From positions 1 to 5,258 of the forward strand of contig JAKAYH010000203.1 in the NCBI GenBank assembly GCA_021826835.1: a DNA stretch of 5,258 nucleotides, read 5' to 3'. The notes beneath the pieces are model-generated. The model was not told the DNA's origin and ran no database searches. It was given only the letters and a program-made list of their open reading frames with translations. A program made the position numbers and the translations under genes. This document shows positions 590 through 4,890 of the stretch, in pieces; the first letter of the stretch is position 1; every line of letters starts with the position of its first letter. This DNA is from Thermoplasmata archaeon (lineage in GTDB: Archaea; Thermoplasmatota; Thermoplasmata; Thermoplasmatales; Thermoplasmataceae).

Positions 590-598
590 TTAAATATT
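584..598 (+). promoter_or_regulatory. Likely archaeal BRE/TATA promoter of the operon
   Basis: An A-rich BRE-like stretch (AAAAAG, 584-589) is followed directly by TTAAATATT (590-598), close to the archaeal TATA-box form. Its centre is about 30 bases before the ATG at 624. Archaeal transcription usually starts some 22-27 bases after the box centre, which predicts a transcript beginning at or a few bases before the start codon. The absence of any Shine-Dalgarno sequence in 598-623 agrees with a leaderless or near-leaderless message. Confidence 0.5.
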
Positions 599-623
599 GA
601 AAACAAATCAATTAATAATTCAA

Positions 624-2369
624 ATGTGTGGGATTATTTCTTATATAGGTAAAAGCAATTGTACCAATTTATTAGTATCTGGTATTAAAAAATTGGAGTA
701 CAGAGGATATGATAGTTTTGGTTATGCGATTAAGTCCTCTTCTGCAATTATAGTGTTTAAGTCTACGGACTCATTGGAGAAAGGGTTGGAGAAAAGTAAC
801 ATATATAAGATTTCAGGTAACTGTGGGATTTTTCACACTAGATGGGCAACAAACGGTAAAGTGAGTTTGGAAAATTCTCACCCTCAGGTTGATTGTAAAT
901 CAAAAATAGCTATAGTTCATAATGGAATAATCGAAAATTATTCTGATATAAAAGATAAATTGAAGAATCATTTTTTCACTTCAGAAACAGACACTGAAGT
1001 AATTCCACACTTGGTCGAAGAATATTTGAATTTAGGCATTCCCTTTTATGATGCAGTTATGAAAGTTGCAAGTGAAATTACTGGTATGTCATCTTTTGTT
1101 GCTATTCATTCTGATTATGAAGAGATGATAGCTGTAAAGAATGGAGCGCCTCTTATCTTGGCACTAGATGATATGGGATTTTTTATCTCTAGTGATGTGC
1201 CATCTGTTTTAGACAAAACTAACAGAATTATCTATTTGAGCGATGGTGATATTGTACGCTTAACCAAGGAGAATTATGAAATAACTAATTTATTGGGAGT
1301 TCATTCATCACACGACATTAAAATTGTTTCGAATGATAACATTATTTTCGAAAATGATAATTACTCACATTTAATGATAAAAGAGATTTATGATCAACTA
1401 TCCATCTGGAAGAAACTCCCAAATAATGTAGTAGGTCGAATAAAACAAGCAACCAATTTATTAAGAAGTGCAGGCAGAATCTATCTGATTGGATCAGGTT
1501 CATCATATCACGTGGCTTTGTGGGGAGCTTTTGAATTTAGAGAAACCGGATTAGACTCATTGGCAATTCAACCACATGAGCTCTCTAATTTCAGAAAAAT
1601 TATAAATAACCGTGACTTGTTATTGATTATCTCCCAAAGTGGAGAGACAGCAGATATAATATTCAATATAAAGACTATTAACAACGTCAAGAAAATTGGC
1701 ATTATTAATGTTGAGAATTCATATCTTTCCGGAGAGGTAGATTTAGTCATTCCAATGAGCGTTGGTTTGGAGAGGGCTGTTGCAGCAACAAAGTCAGTAT
1801 CTAATTCATTAATAGTTTTAACTTACCTTAGTTCTCTTCTAGTTGGTTCCGAAAAAGTTGCAAATCTTGATGTTAATCTTTTGGAGCTAAACAAATTTAA
1901 TCTTGTTGTACCCTCCATAGTGTCAAAGATAGAAGAAATTGCAAATTTATTAGTTAATGAATCCCAACTGTTTATATGTGGGAGTGGTAGTAATTATATA
2001 CTTTCAATGGAAGGTGCATTGAAAATAAAGGAAGTTACATATATTCACGCTGAGGCTCTAGATTTGGTATCTTTGAAACATGGACCCTTAGCAATGATTG
2101 AAGAAGGCACAAAGGTTATTGTCTTGGTTGATGACAAAAAACAACTCAGAAATTTAAATGAACTAAAAGCAAGGGGAGCCGTCATAATAGGAATATCAAA
2201 AAGTAACTTCGAAATTTTTGATTATTTTGTGAGGTCAGTTGAAGCAGGTATTTTTTCATTCGCACCAACCCTTTTTATTTTGCAATATCTTTCTTATTCA
2301 ATTGCAATTAAGAAGGGATTAGATCCTGACAAACCTCGAAATTTAGCCAAGTCGGTGACTGTAAGATGA
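624..2369 (+). CDS. glmS: Glutamine:fructose-6-phosphate aminotransferase (isomerizing), GlmS
   Basis: This 581-residue enzyme makes glucosamine-6-phosphate from fructose-6-phosphate and glutamine in the cytoplasm, the committed step to UDP-GlcNAc. The start is the ATG at 624, not the in-frame TTG at 597, because Met removal must expose the catalytic N-terminal Cys (MCGIISYIG). The class II glutaminase domain (about 2-220) shows EYRGYDSFG (25-33), HTRWATNG (71-78), HNGIIENY (99-106, oxyanion Asn/Gly) and ETDTE (121-125). The isomerase half has two SIS domains: SIS1 with GSGSSYH (290-296) and SQSGETAD (337-344), SIS2 with GSGSNY (453-458) and ALKIKEVTYIHAEA (465-478). By alignment with E. coli GlmS, Glu470, His486 and Lys576 correspond to Glu488, His504 and Lys603. 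Oddities: the usual GELKHGP is VSLKHGP, and the protein ends AKSVTVR rather than AKSVTVE. Length is a little below the usual 600-610. The stop overlaps the next gene by ATGA. Confidence 0.96.
   Translation: MCGIISYIGKSNCTNLLVSGIKKLEYRGYDSFGYAIKSSSAIIVFKSTDSLEKGLEKSNIYKISGNCGIFHTRWATNGKVSLENSHPQVDCKSKIAIVHNGIIENYSDIKDKLKNHFFTSETDTEVIPHLVEEYLNLGIPFYDAVMKVASEITGMSSFVAIHSDYEEMIAVKNGAPLILALDDMGFFISSDVPSVLDKTNRIIYLSDGDIVRLTKENYEITNLLGVHSSHDIKIVSNDNIIFENDNYSHLMIKEIYDQLSIWKKLPNNVVGRIKQATNLLRSAGRIYLIGSGSSYHVALWGAFEFRETGLDSLAIQPHELSNFRKIINNRDLLLIISQSGETADIIFNIKTINNVKKIGIINVENSYLSGEVDLVIPMSVGLERAVAATKSVSNSLIVLTYLSSLLVGSEKVANLDVNLLELNKFNLVVPSIVSKIEEIANLLVNESQLFICGSGSNYILSMEGALKIKEVTYIHAEALDLVSLKHGPLAMIEEGTKVIVLVDDKKQLRNLNELKARGAVIIGISKSNFEIFDYFVRSVEAGIFSFAPTLFILQYLSYSIAIKKGLDPDKPRNLAKSVTVR
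2354..2358 (+). promoter_or_regulatory. Shine-Dalgarno site for the phosphohexomutase, inside glmS
   Basis: GGTGA lies within the last codons of glmS, seven bases before the ATG at 2366. It matches the archaeal/bacterial anti-SD sequence and supports that start for the internal gene, in contrast to the first gene of the operon, which has none. Confidence 0.55.
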
Positions 2370-3742
2370 ATGGTTCTATTGAATCACAATTGCTTGATAT
2401 TTTTCGTGCTTACGACATTAGGGGTGTGGTACCAGACCAATTAAACGAGAAAACCGCATTCAGGCTAGGTCAGGCATTTGGAAGTAGTATAGAAGAGGAC
2501 AAGGGTGTTTGCGTTGGTAGGGATGTTAGAGGGTCAAGTAAAATGATATTTACTTCTTTTTGTAAGGGTGTAATATCTACGGGTGTTGATGTTATTGACC
2601 TAGGAAAAGTCCCTTCTCCGGTTTTATATTTCAACACATTAAATTTAAATCTATCTGGAGGTGCTATAATAACTGCCTCGCATCTTCCAAGTAATTGGAA
2701 CGGCGTAAAATTTTGTGATAACAAGGGTATAGTAGTTTCAGATGGAACTGGATTAGAAATTATTAAGAAATCAGTTTCATCTAAACCAAGAAAACCCAAA
2801 AAAATAGGCAAAATTATATTATACACTAATGGTGTAGATGAATATGTTAACTTCTTGATTAGTAAAGTCACAATAGAAAATCCACCAAAGATAGTTTTTG
2901 ATTTTGGAAATAGCGTCACCGCTAATATTGTCCCAAATATCATGGAAAAACTAAAAATTAAATTTTCTATGATTAATGCTGACCAAGGAAAGCAAATCAG
3001 ACCTTCAGAACTGACTTCATATTCATTGAAAGGCTTGAAGGATGAGGTGTTAAAAACAGAGAGCGACATAGGAATTGCATATGATGGAGATGGAGATAGG
3101 GTTGGTTTTGTGGATGATGTTGGCAATATTTACCCAAAAGGGGAAAAAATAATTCAGATCTTTGCAGGAAGTATTTTGGAAGAAAAAAAAGCGAAAATTG
3201 TTATAGATGTGACTTGTTCAACATCCGTATCTAAATACATTATCGATATGGGTGGTGAACCAATAATAATAAGGGTTGGACATAGTTATTCTGCAAACAG
3301 CGTTTTGAATCTAGGAGCTATGTTTGGGGCACAGTACAGTGGGCATTATAGTTTTCCCGAAATGAATTGTATTGATGATGCTATTTTTGCTAGCTTTAAG
3401 ATGATAGAAATTTTATCTAAAAGCAAGAAAACCTTACATTCCCTAGCTGATCATTTACCTCTTTCATATGCAAGCGAAGTTTTAGAAATAGAGTGTGATG
3501 ATAAGAAAAAATTTCTAATTATTGAAAACATTGCCAGAAAGGTAAAGGAACTAGGGTACTTATCAGAACAGGTGGATGGAGTTAAATTCTTTTCAAACGA
3601 GCATAAGAGTAATTGGGTTTTAATAAGAGCATCTAATACTTCTCCTATTATAAGAGTTAATGCGGATGGAGAAACAAAAGAAATAGTTAAACAATTATTG
3701 GATCAAGGGATAACTTTAGTAAAAGAGGCTATGGAAAAATGA
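2366..3742 (+). CDS. Alpha-D-phosphohexomutase (PMM/PGM/GlmM superfamily)
   Basis: This 458-residue enzyme moves phosphate between C6 and C1 of a hexose. Its operon suggests glucosamine- or N-acetylglucosamine-phosphate as substrate (a GlmM- or AGM1-like role). All four superfamily sites are visible: the phosphoserine loop TASHLPSNWNG (103-113, Ser105); the metal loop DGDGDR (240-245); the sugar-specificity loop GAQYSGHYSF (321-330); and the phosphate-binding loop RASNTSPIIR (421-430). FRAYDIRG (13-20) is the usual N-terminal motif. The sequence looks more like the PMM/PGM branch (COG1109) than bacterial GlmM, so specificity is inferred from neighbours. Oddity: the sugar loop normally reads GGE-x-SGH, and here Glu is replaced by Gln323. 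The start is fixed by the ATGA overlap with glmS and the GGTGA site; the stop overlaps the third gene in the same way. A phosphomannomutase is the main alternative. Confidence 0.92.
   Translation: MNGSIESQLLDIFRAYDIRGVVPDQLNEKTAFRLGQAFGSSIEEDKGVCVGRDVRGSSKMIFTSFCKGVISTGVDVIDLGKVPSPVLYFNTLNLNLSGGAIITASHLPSNWNGVKFCDNKGIVVSDGTGLEIIKKSVSSKPRKPKKIGKIILYTNGVDEYVNFLISKVTIENPPKIVFDFGNSVTANIVPNIMEKLKIKFSMINADQGKQIRPSELTSYSLKGLKDEVLKTESDIGIAYDGDGDRVGFVDDVGNIYPKGEKIIQIFAGSILEEKKAKIVIDVTCSTSVSKYIIDMGGEPIIIRVGHSYSANSVLNLGAMFGAQYSGHYSFPEMNCIDDAIFASFKMIEILSKSKKTLHSLADHLPLSYASEVLEIECDDKKKFLIIENIARKVKELGYLSEQVDGVKFFSNEHKSNWVLIRASNTSPIIRVNADGETKEIVKQLLDQGITLVKEAMEK
3725..3728 (+). promoter_or_regulatory. Shine-Dalgarno site for the nucleotidyltransferase-GNAT gene
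   Basis: GAGG ends 10 bases before the ATG at 3739, within the last codons of the mutase gene. Spacing is a little long. Together with the ATGA stop/start overlap it supports coupled translation from this start. Confidence 0.4.
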
Positions 3743-4890
3743 TTAATCAGGCGGTTATCTTAGCGGCTGGGAAAGGAAAACGAATGAAAGACGGTGTTAA
3801 AGATTCATATTTAGAATCAACACCAAAGTCTTTAATAGATGTTAATGGTGTTCCTCTAATCTCAAGAACGGTTAAGAGTTTGATCTCTGACGGAATACAG
3901 GTTTTTATCGTTATAAATAAAAATGAGGAGAGTAAATTTAGAAAAGCACTTTCAAACTACGATATTACTTATTGTTACGAAGATGAACCACTGGGAACTG
4001 CCCACGCTTTATATTCTGCAAGGGATTTCATAACCGACAAATTATTCGGGGTGTTTATGGGTGACGATATTTTTGATTATGAAGAGTTACAAATTAAAAA
4101 TAAAGATGCTCCAACAATATTCGCATACTTACATTATGACTGTATAAATTATGGAGTTTTAGATGTTGATGGCAATCAAGTTGCTAGGAGTATAATAGAA
4201 AAGAAGAAACTAGGAAAAGGACTTGTGAATACGGGTATTTATGTTATGCCTAATGAATTTTTTGAACTGTTCAAAACTATAACCCGAAGCAGTGATTCAG
4301 CAGAATATTTCCTTACAGATGTGATATCAAAATTTTACTTTTTGAGTAAAGGCTTTAAAGTAGAAATTATAAATGAGTGGCAAGGAATTAATTATCCAAA
4401 GGATCTGAAGACTGTAATGCTAAAAATAGAAGGAAATCCAATAATAAGACTCGCGAGAATGAGTGATGTTGAAAGATTAATTACACTATTTAGTCAATTG
4501 AGCGAAAGTTCAATCGAAGTAAATTATGACAAAGAAAAAGGAAAAGCAGAATTGAAAAGGATTGTAGAAAATCCAAATCAATACACCCTAGTAGCAGTTG
4601 TTGAAGATTATGTTGTGGGAACAGCAACTTTATTGGTACAAAATAATCTAACTCATGGTGCTTCACCATATGCACATATTGAGAATGTTGTAACAGATAA
4701 AGAGTGGAGAAATAAATCAATAGGTAAAATGCTTGTAAATGAACTGATTCATATTGCGAGGCAATTGAGTTGCTATAAAGTAATATTAAATTGCAATATG
4801 TATAATTCAACATTTTACGAAAAGTTAGGCTTTATTTCAACGAATGAAATTGAAATGCGCTTCAACCTGAATGACGATTTCAATCAGTAA
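3739..4890 (+). CDS. Fused sugar-phosphate nucleotidyltransferase and GNA1-like N-acetyltransferase
   Basis: This 383-residue two-domain protein probably performs both the acetylation and the uridylylation steps of UDP-GlcNAc synthesis. Residues 1 to about 228 form a GlmU/RmlA-type nucleotidyltransferase: ILAAGKGKRM (7-16), TPKSLIDVNGVPLI (28-41), EPLGTAHAL (83-91), the metal Asp in MGDD (107-110), IIEKK (152-156), VNTGIYV (163-169), EYFLTDVI (189-196) and INYPKDL (217-223). By alignment, Asn218 would be the second metal ligand. Residues about 235-378 are a GNAT fold: IIRLARMSDVERL (235-247), AHIENVVTD (312-320), WRNKSIGKMLV (323-333), CYKVILNCN (345-353) and FYEKLGF (359-365). The last segments closely follow eukaryotic glucosamine-6-phosphate N-acetyltransferase GNA1. 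The acetyl-CoA loop is divergent (R-N-K-S-I-G), although human GNA1 also departs from consensus there. No hexapeptide beta-helix repeats are present, unlike GlmU. Substrates are inferred. Confidence 0.9.
   Translation: MINQAVILAAGKGKRMKDGVKDSYLESTPKSLIDVNGVPLISRTVKSLISDGIQVFIVINKNEESKFRKALSNYDITYCYEDEPLGTAHALYSARDFITDKLFGVFMGDDIFDYEELQIKNKDAPTIFAYLHYDCINYGVLDVDGNQVARSIIEKKKLGKGLVNTGIYVMPNEFFELFKTITRSSDSAEYFLTDVISKFYFLSKGFKVEIINEWQGINYPKDLKTVMLKIEGNPIIRLARMSDVERLITLFSQLSESSIEVNYDKEKGKAELKRIVENPNQYTLVAVVEDYVVGTATLLVQNNLTHGASPYAHIENVVTDKEWRNKSIGKMLVNELIHIARQLSCYKVILNCNMYNSTFYEKLGFISTNEIEMRFNLNDDFNQ

Follow-up and report, generated by a model that had tools for sequence, protein, structure and literature searches.

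Positions 3739 to 4890 (+) of a contig from a Thermoplasmata archaeon (JAKAYH010000203.1; the window, 5,258 nt in all) contain an intact gene, running from ATG to TAA without an internal stop, for a 383-residue protein in which a nucleotidyltransferase (NT) is joined to an acetyltransferase of the GNAT superfamily. This confirms the fusion reported in the initial annotation. The protein is probably a bifunctional enzyme that makes UDP-N-acetylglucosamine (UDP-GlcNAc), with its GNAT half acting on glucosamine-6-phosphate (GlcN-6-P) and its pathway following the eukaryotic order of steps. In the Pfam search, NTP_transferase matched residues 5-199 (E 2e-19) and Acetyltransf_1 residues 267-365 (E 3.5e-17). 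Every motif quoted in the initial annotation was found once in the protein: LAAGKGKRM (8-16), GTAHAL (86-91), GDD (108-110), NTG (164-166) and NYPKDL (218-223) in the NT half (residues 1-230; 3739..4428, +), and AHIENVV (312-318), GKMLV (329-333), CYKVILNCN (345-353) and FYEKLGF (359-365) in the GNAT half (residues 231-383; 4429..4887, +). In the model (mean pLDDT, 90.7; pTM, 0.87) a helix at 220-230 closes the NT part and a strand at 235-238 opens the GNAT part, leaving a linker of about four residues, close to the very short span (228-235) originally proposed.

Profile scores and the tree both place the GNAT half with GNA1, in a prokaryotic GNA1-like branch. The description of this half as eukaryotic-GNA1-like thus holds for its type but not for a place among the eukaryotic genes, given that branch and an Asn where those genes have Asp. 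A profile made from ten eukaryotic GNA1 sequences (eight from plants, one marine-eukaryote transcript and one from T. brucei) scored 89.4 bits against the GNAT half; because the best of 200 shuffles reached 3.7 bits, the likeness is not due to chance. The same profile gave 52.8 bits for PDB entry 2dxq, and 19.8, 17.1 and 6.6 bits for PhnO of E. coli, RimI and SpeG, respectively; RffC lay outside the 12 best rows and hence under 2.2 bits. Since a Foldseek search with the whole model was dominated by NT matches, the GNAT half was predicted alone, and in the resulting structure ranking GNA1 entries came first, with the uncharacterized 2dxq and 1z4e within 1 Z. RimI was the best match by neither profile nor structure, and the grouping with RimI or amino-acid acetyltransferases that the initial annotation named as refuting its reading was not seen by profile score or structure ranking.

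In a quick first tree of 154 rows (79 of 84 stand-alone proteins, the short ones being omitted), the end branches of four outgroups were 2.5 to 6.8 long, and RimI, whose branch was too long to be usable, fell on the GNA1 side; this tree was replaced. The tree used instead omitted five of the six outgroups, 36 of the 79 stand-alone rows and 8 fusions that were near copies of others; the usable outside rows were 2dxq and five relatives, and a root on 2dxq was assumed. A branch with support of 100/99 placed the GNAT half of the fusions on a common side with eukaryotic GNA1, and the 2dxq group on the other. Under the assumed root, the topology only suggests that eukaryotic GNA1 is nested within prokaryotic sequences. 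The spacing from CYK (C345-Y346-K347 in the window protein) to FY is 12 in 31/32 fusions and 12/12 eukaryotic rows, as against 15 in 6/6 rows on the 2dxq side. The 2dxq group, which includes P0170 and P0198, is a GNA1-like family with a loop three residues longer and with Lys, Glu and Tyr kept; it is possibly another amino-sugar acetyltransferase.

Glu104, Lys136, Tyr149 and Cys141 of C. elegans GNA1 are acceptor-site residues (PMC3413214). The first three correspond to E315, K347 and Y360, found in 32/32 fusions, and Cys141 to C352, found in 31/32. Because the 2dxq side has the equivalents of Glu104, Lys136 and Tyr149 too, those three do not separate the families. The column of GNA1 Asp105, which binds the 4-OH, holds Asn in 32/32 fusions (N316 in the window protein) and 11/11 split pairs, but Asp in 12/12 eukaryotic rows. 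R374 (in E372-M373-R374) is invariant and adjoins M373 as in T. brucei GNA1; Arg164 of C. elegans, which binds the 6-phosphate, stands two positions later. Intended as a sharp test for GlcN-6-P, the Arg164 comparison gave a mixed picture, with Arg in the R374 column in 1/12 eukaryotic rows. Overall, eukaryotic GNA1 (EC 2.3.1.4; 1i1d, 3i3g, 3t90, 3cxq) shares with the GNAT half its fold, the Glu/Lys/Tyr/Cys acceptor residues and the CYK-to-FY spacing; the window protein differs in being joined to an NT, in the replacement of Asp105, in an Arg two positions earlier and in its prokaryotic branch. The GNAT half is expected to dimerize as GNA1 does, through its last strand.

The NT half is a sugar-1-phosphate nucleotidyltransferase of the GlmU/RmlA superfamily, in line with the GlmU-like assignment made at the outset. 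Its best NCBIfam match was the archaeal GlmU model TIGR03992 (122.2 bits, ending at residue 226), ahead of the bacterial model TIGR01173 (71.7 bits), and the fusion fell under the cut-offs of both (292.1 and 366.85, respectively). The best PDB profile match was archaeal GlmU/ST0452 (2ggo, 5z09). Residues D109 and N218 occupy the alignment positions of D105 and N227 in E. coli GlmU, which we take to be metal-site residues, and were invariant in 39/39 fusions. Both bacterial (e.g., E. coli) and archaeal GlmU carry a left-handed beta-helix (hexapeptide) acetyltransferase half, whereas the window protein has a GNAT fold instead; no hexapeptide family was among its 10 Pfam hits at E 0.01.

The fusion gene is the third and last of an operon. 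The first gene (624..2369, +) encodes a 581-residue GlmS (glutamine--fructose-6-phosphate transaminase) with an MCGII start, which scored 494.7 bits against TIGR01135 (cut-off, 418.05; profile query begun at nt 621). It is joined by an ATGA overlap at 2366-2369 to the gene for a 458-residue GlmM/PMM-like phosphohexomutase (2366..3742, +), which is in turn joined to the fusion gene by a second ATGA overlap at 3739-3742.

Fusions were counted among the 120 proteins listed of 382 hits in a protein search. Among these, 39 proteins, including the window protein, had both domains over ≥92% of the query: 36 further fusions (P0002-P0037) with 37-52% identity to the window protein, and P0048 and P0050 with 27-28%. 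Source labels include Thermoplasmata archaeon, Ca. Micrarchaeaceae and Cuniculiplasma sp., whose cluster has a longest contig of 797 kb. Sixteen of the first 37 fusions were called from Met16 and therefore lack the glycine-rich loop. In the DNA of L001, the one of the 16 that was checked, an ATC codon followed by the sequence for this loop lies in frame ahead of the called start, and a wrong or unusual start call is likely. A scan of species genomes, keeping the best 80 of 150 relatives, yielded 77 loci, in 15 of which NT and GNAT are adjacent. The two form one frame in 4/15 (L001, L005 and L013 in Thermoplasmata-labelled bins, L016 in a Nanoarchaeota-labelled bin) and lie in two adjoining frames in 11/15 (L002-L004, L006-L011, L014 and L015, with the DPANN labels Parvarchaeota or Nanoarchaeota). 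Among the rows listed, in order of E-value, for 101 genomes related to, and including, G001, full-length matches occurred only in G001 (two copies) and G005; of 94 relatives of G003, the NT-GNAT pair was present in 12 and a GNAT of the fusion family (E 1e-40) in 2 others. These genomes are draft metagenome assemblies, and contigs may have been misbinned, the short L001 and L013 in particular. On these two contigs the G001 bin carries two divergent glmS-mutase-fusion operons, owing to a genuine duplication or to a mixture of strains. Single-domain NTs of the fusion family were also observed near glmS at L012:6040-6741 and L017:1340-2044, with no GNAT at either locus (the search did not extend to the rest of these genomes).

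A mutase gene lies immediately upstream in 12/15 NT-GNAT loci, and in three of them (L001, L005, L013) glmS lies upstream of the mutase, the same layout as in the window. Stand-alone GNATs of the fusion family were found at four loci, all four with glmS nearby: 2 bases away in L018 (Vermiphilus), 4 bases in L021 (Diapherotrites), 173 bases in L020, and with one gene between in L019. A fifth locus (L066) was left out, its GNAT match being weak (28%) and on the other strand. Neighbouring genes were listed for nine loci, seven of which have a GNAT. YvcK/GlmR-type genes, a family named UDP-GlcNAc-binding by NCBI, were near in three: L021 (352 bits; cut-off, 196), L019 (197.5) and L002 (164.9, under the cut-off). 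In B. subtilis, GlmR is reported to stimulate GlmS, an effect that UDP-GlcNAc blocks (PMC7525490). In L021, glmS and the GNA1-like gene are followed directly by a gene (10444-12099) in which a HAD-type phosphatase is joined to a YvcK/GlmR (CofD-like) domain. In L019 (10383-11786) and L020 (10432-11823), NT genes of another subfamily (27-28% identity; 467 and 463 residues) follow the GNAT beside glmS; the L019 protein is fused to a HAD phosphatase (Pfam) and followed by a YvcK-like gene, and L020 looks alike by eye.

The operon mutase belongs to a distinct subtype. The window enzyme and the 12 mutases adjoining NT-GNAT genes (L001, L003-L006, L008, L009, L011, L013-L016) share TASHLP, the sugar loop G(A/G)Q(Y/F)S(G/C)H and an R-x-SNT loop, where the mutases of seven NT-only loci have SASHN, GGE.SGH and RYSGT instead. 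Matches to the mutase were found in 156 relative genomes (62/94 and 94/101), and the sugar loop was read in 63 mutases, 60 from loci and three from NT-GNAT genomes lacking the operon mutase. Gln occupied the loop in 11/63, all from NT-GNAT genomes, and Glu in 51/63, three of these being the NT-GNAT genomes G002, G007 and G010; the remaining mutase, a 44-45% identical fragment from G125, where no NT-GNAT pair was found, stops short of the loop. The Gln subtype is thus tied to the NT-GNAT pair, but is dispensable in some genomes or missing from those drafts. In a study of human PGM1 paralogs, the sugar-loop Glu contacts sugar hydroxyls and is present in all of them, and PGM3, which acts on GlcNAc phosphates, has an added Asn after it that contacts the N-acetyl group (PMC5570346). 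This Glu-Asn mark of AGM1/PGM3 was sought in the operon mutase and was not found, the window loop being GAQYSGH (Q323, nt 3332-3334). Gln in place of Glu fits a different mutase substrate, but it marks one clade and is no independent test.

In the pathway that we propose, GlmS would yield GlcN-6-P, the GNAT half would transfer acetyl from acetyl-CoA to it to give GlcNAc-6-P, the operon mutase would convert this to GlcNAc-1-P, and the NT half would couple GlcNAc-1-P with UTP to form UDP-GlcNAc. Family and operon evidence underlies the GlcN-6-P and UDP-GlcNAc ends of this scheme; the order of the steps between them is inferred from descent with GNA1, from the glmS-linked stand-alone GNATs and, more weakly, from the mutase subtype. 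Because the likely acceptor is GlcN-6-P, which also distinguishes the predicted enzyme from bacterial GlmU, the two activities would flank the mutase. A single protein would then catalyse the non-consecutive steps before and after it, unlike the two successive steps of GlmU, and might provide a local supply around the mutase or a fixed stoichiometry. HisB likewise combines two non-consecutive steps of one pathway in a bifunctional protein, although its enzymes and pathway differ.

The strongest competitor, which we consider unlikely, keeps the GlmU order: the mutase would make GlcN-1-P and the GNAT half would acetylate it, allowing two successive steps and possible channelling of GlcNAc-1-P. 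Several observations speak for this order. The GNAT is joined to an NT, as the acetyltransferase is in GlmU; the model that the window mutase resembles most is that of archaeal GlmM (TIGR03990, 319.8 bits, below the cut-off of 439); the Gln-type operon mutase is missing from 3/14 NT-GNAT genomes, whose best mutase is Glu-type; and the Asn for Asp105, with the shifted Arg, leaves room for a changed acceptor. Descent with GNA1, retention of the Cys141 equivalent, the altered sugar loop of the operon mutase, and stand-alone GNATs beside glmS, at two loci with no mutase matched, argue instead for acetylation of GlcN-6-P. No protein scored above the TIGR03992 or TIGR01173 cut-off in the 20 draft genomes reached through the loci, compared with 4 and 9, respectively, of 14 control genomes. 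Partial matches to the beta-helix end of the profile nevertheless remain among NT proteins of G001 and G005 (~198-231 bits, under the cut-off), and for this reason the absence of GlmU is only supporting.

It is less probable still that the halves serve another amino sugar or nucleotide (e.g., GalNAc-1-P or dTTP) and make a different NDP-N-acetylamino sugar. The NT half does match RmlA and UDP-glucose pyrophosphorylases as well, and the GNAT fold is common to many acetyltransferases, but the operon GlmS above its cut-off, the YvcK/GlmR-like neighbours and the invariant N218 speak for UDP-GlcNAc. Chance fusion to an unrelated 2dxq-, aminoglycoside- or RimI-like acetyltransferase is very improbable: 2dxq and 1z4e are level with GNA1 in structural Z, 2dxq has both the IENVVT motif and the Asn, and an NCBIfam aminoglycoside acetyltransferase model matches weakly (39 bits; cut-off, 140), but the CYK-to-FY spacing, the 100/99 branch, the GNA1-profile scores and the glm operon all stand against it.

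The initial annotation also proposed a non-homologous replacement of the acetyltransferase half of GlmU. A GNAT does stand where GlmU has its beta-helix; because 11 of the 15 genomic NT-GNAT loci consist of two neighbouring genes, however, the architecture looks more like a fusion of operon neighbours than a swap within GlmU. The probable precursor of the fused gene is a pair of adjacent genes, an arrangement that persists in DPANN relatives. Neither the GNAT tree nor a joined NT+GNAT tree recovered the fusions as one group, and P0034, identical to the L016 fusion, was placed apart from the others; approximately unbiased (AU) tests did not reject a single group (p = 0.247 and 0.231, respectively), so the data fit one origin or several. 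P0048 (379 residues) and P0050 (378 residues) follow the same plan of an NT joined to a GNA1-like GNAT, but differ from the window protein in an NT of bacterial GlmU type (P0048, TIGR01173, 206 bits over residues 4-237) and in a GNAT nearer eukaryotic GNA1, with which it groups together with one stand-alone protein (98/92). They apparently represent a separate fusion event, suggesting more than one origin for the NT-GNA1 combination. Taken as a whole, a wider picture, which we put forward tentatively and with somewhat less than even confidence, is that of a eukaryote-order pathway in a three-gene archaeal operon with a co-adapted GlcNAc-6-P mutase, a prokaryotic DPANN/Thermoplasmata branch within the diversity that yielded eukaryotic GNA1, and at least two origins of NT-GNA1 fusions, each from a different NT.

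Bacteria and archaea are normally taken to make UDP-GlcNAc by way of GlmU, with GNA1 assigned to the eukaryotic route. If correct, the proposed pathway would account for UDP-GlcNAc in the 20/20 draft genomes without GlmU above cut-off, would change the predicted order of steps in DPANN and Thermoplasmata with fused or paired NT-GNAT, and would supply prokaryotic relatives with which to test the origin of eukaryotic GNA1. The names given to the fusions by their sources (dTDP-glucose pyrophosphorylase, GNAT family N-acetyltransferase) hide this predicted function. Some stand-alone relatives are already named glucosamine-phosphate N-acetyltransferase, so prokaryotic GNA1-like proteins are not new to databases. 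What appears undescribed in the literature searched is the NT-GNAT arrangement, both fused and split, and the mutase subtype that goes with it; a full-text search, with most subscription journals outside its coverage, returned no description of the fusion.

A viral origin of the fusion was also considered, and scans of viral contigs with P0001 and P0048 found no relative, while those with A2 and A3 gave one NT-only locus at 27% identity and three stretches at 26%, respectively; all four scans need exact pattern words, so a virus is not excluded. Matches occurred in 656 plasmid records, every one below 60% identity, and the 20 rows listed were NT-like. Within the window, G+C content is 33% across 597-4890 and 44% across 1-560. 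Within the latter region, one open frame (3-272, -) has paired CxxC-like cysteines and continues past the window edge, and a second (269-469, -) matches the transposon-encoded DUF2080 below its cut-off; together these frames suggest a mobile element beside the operon.

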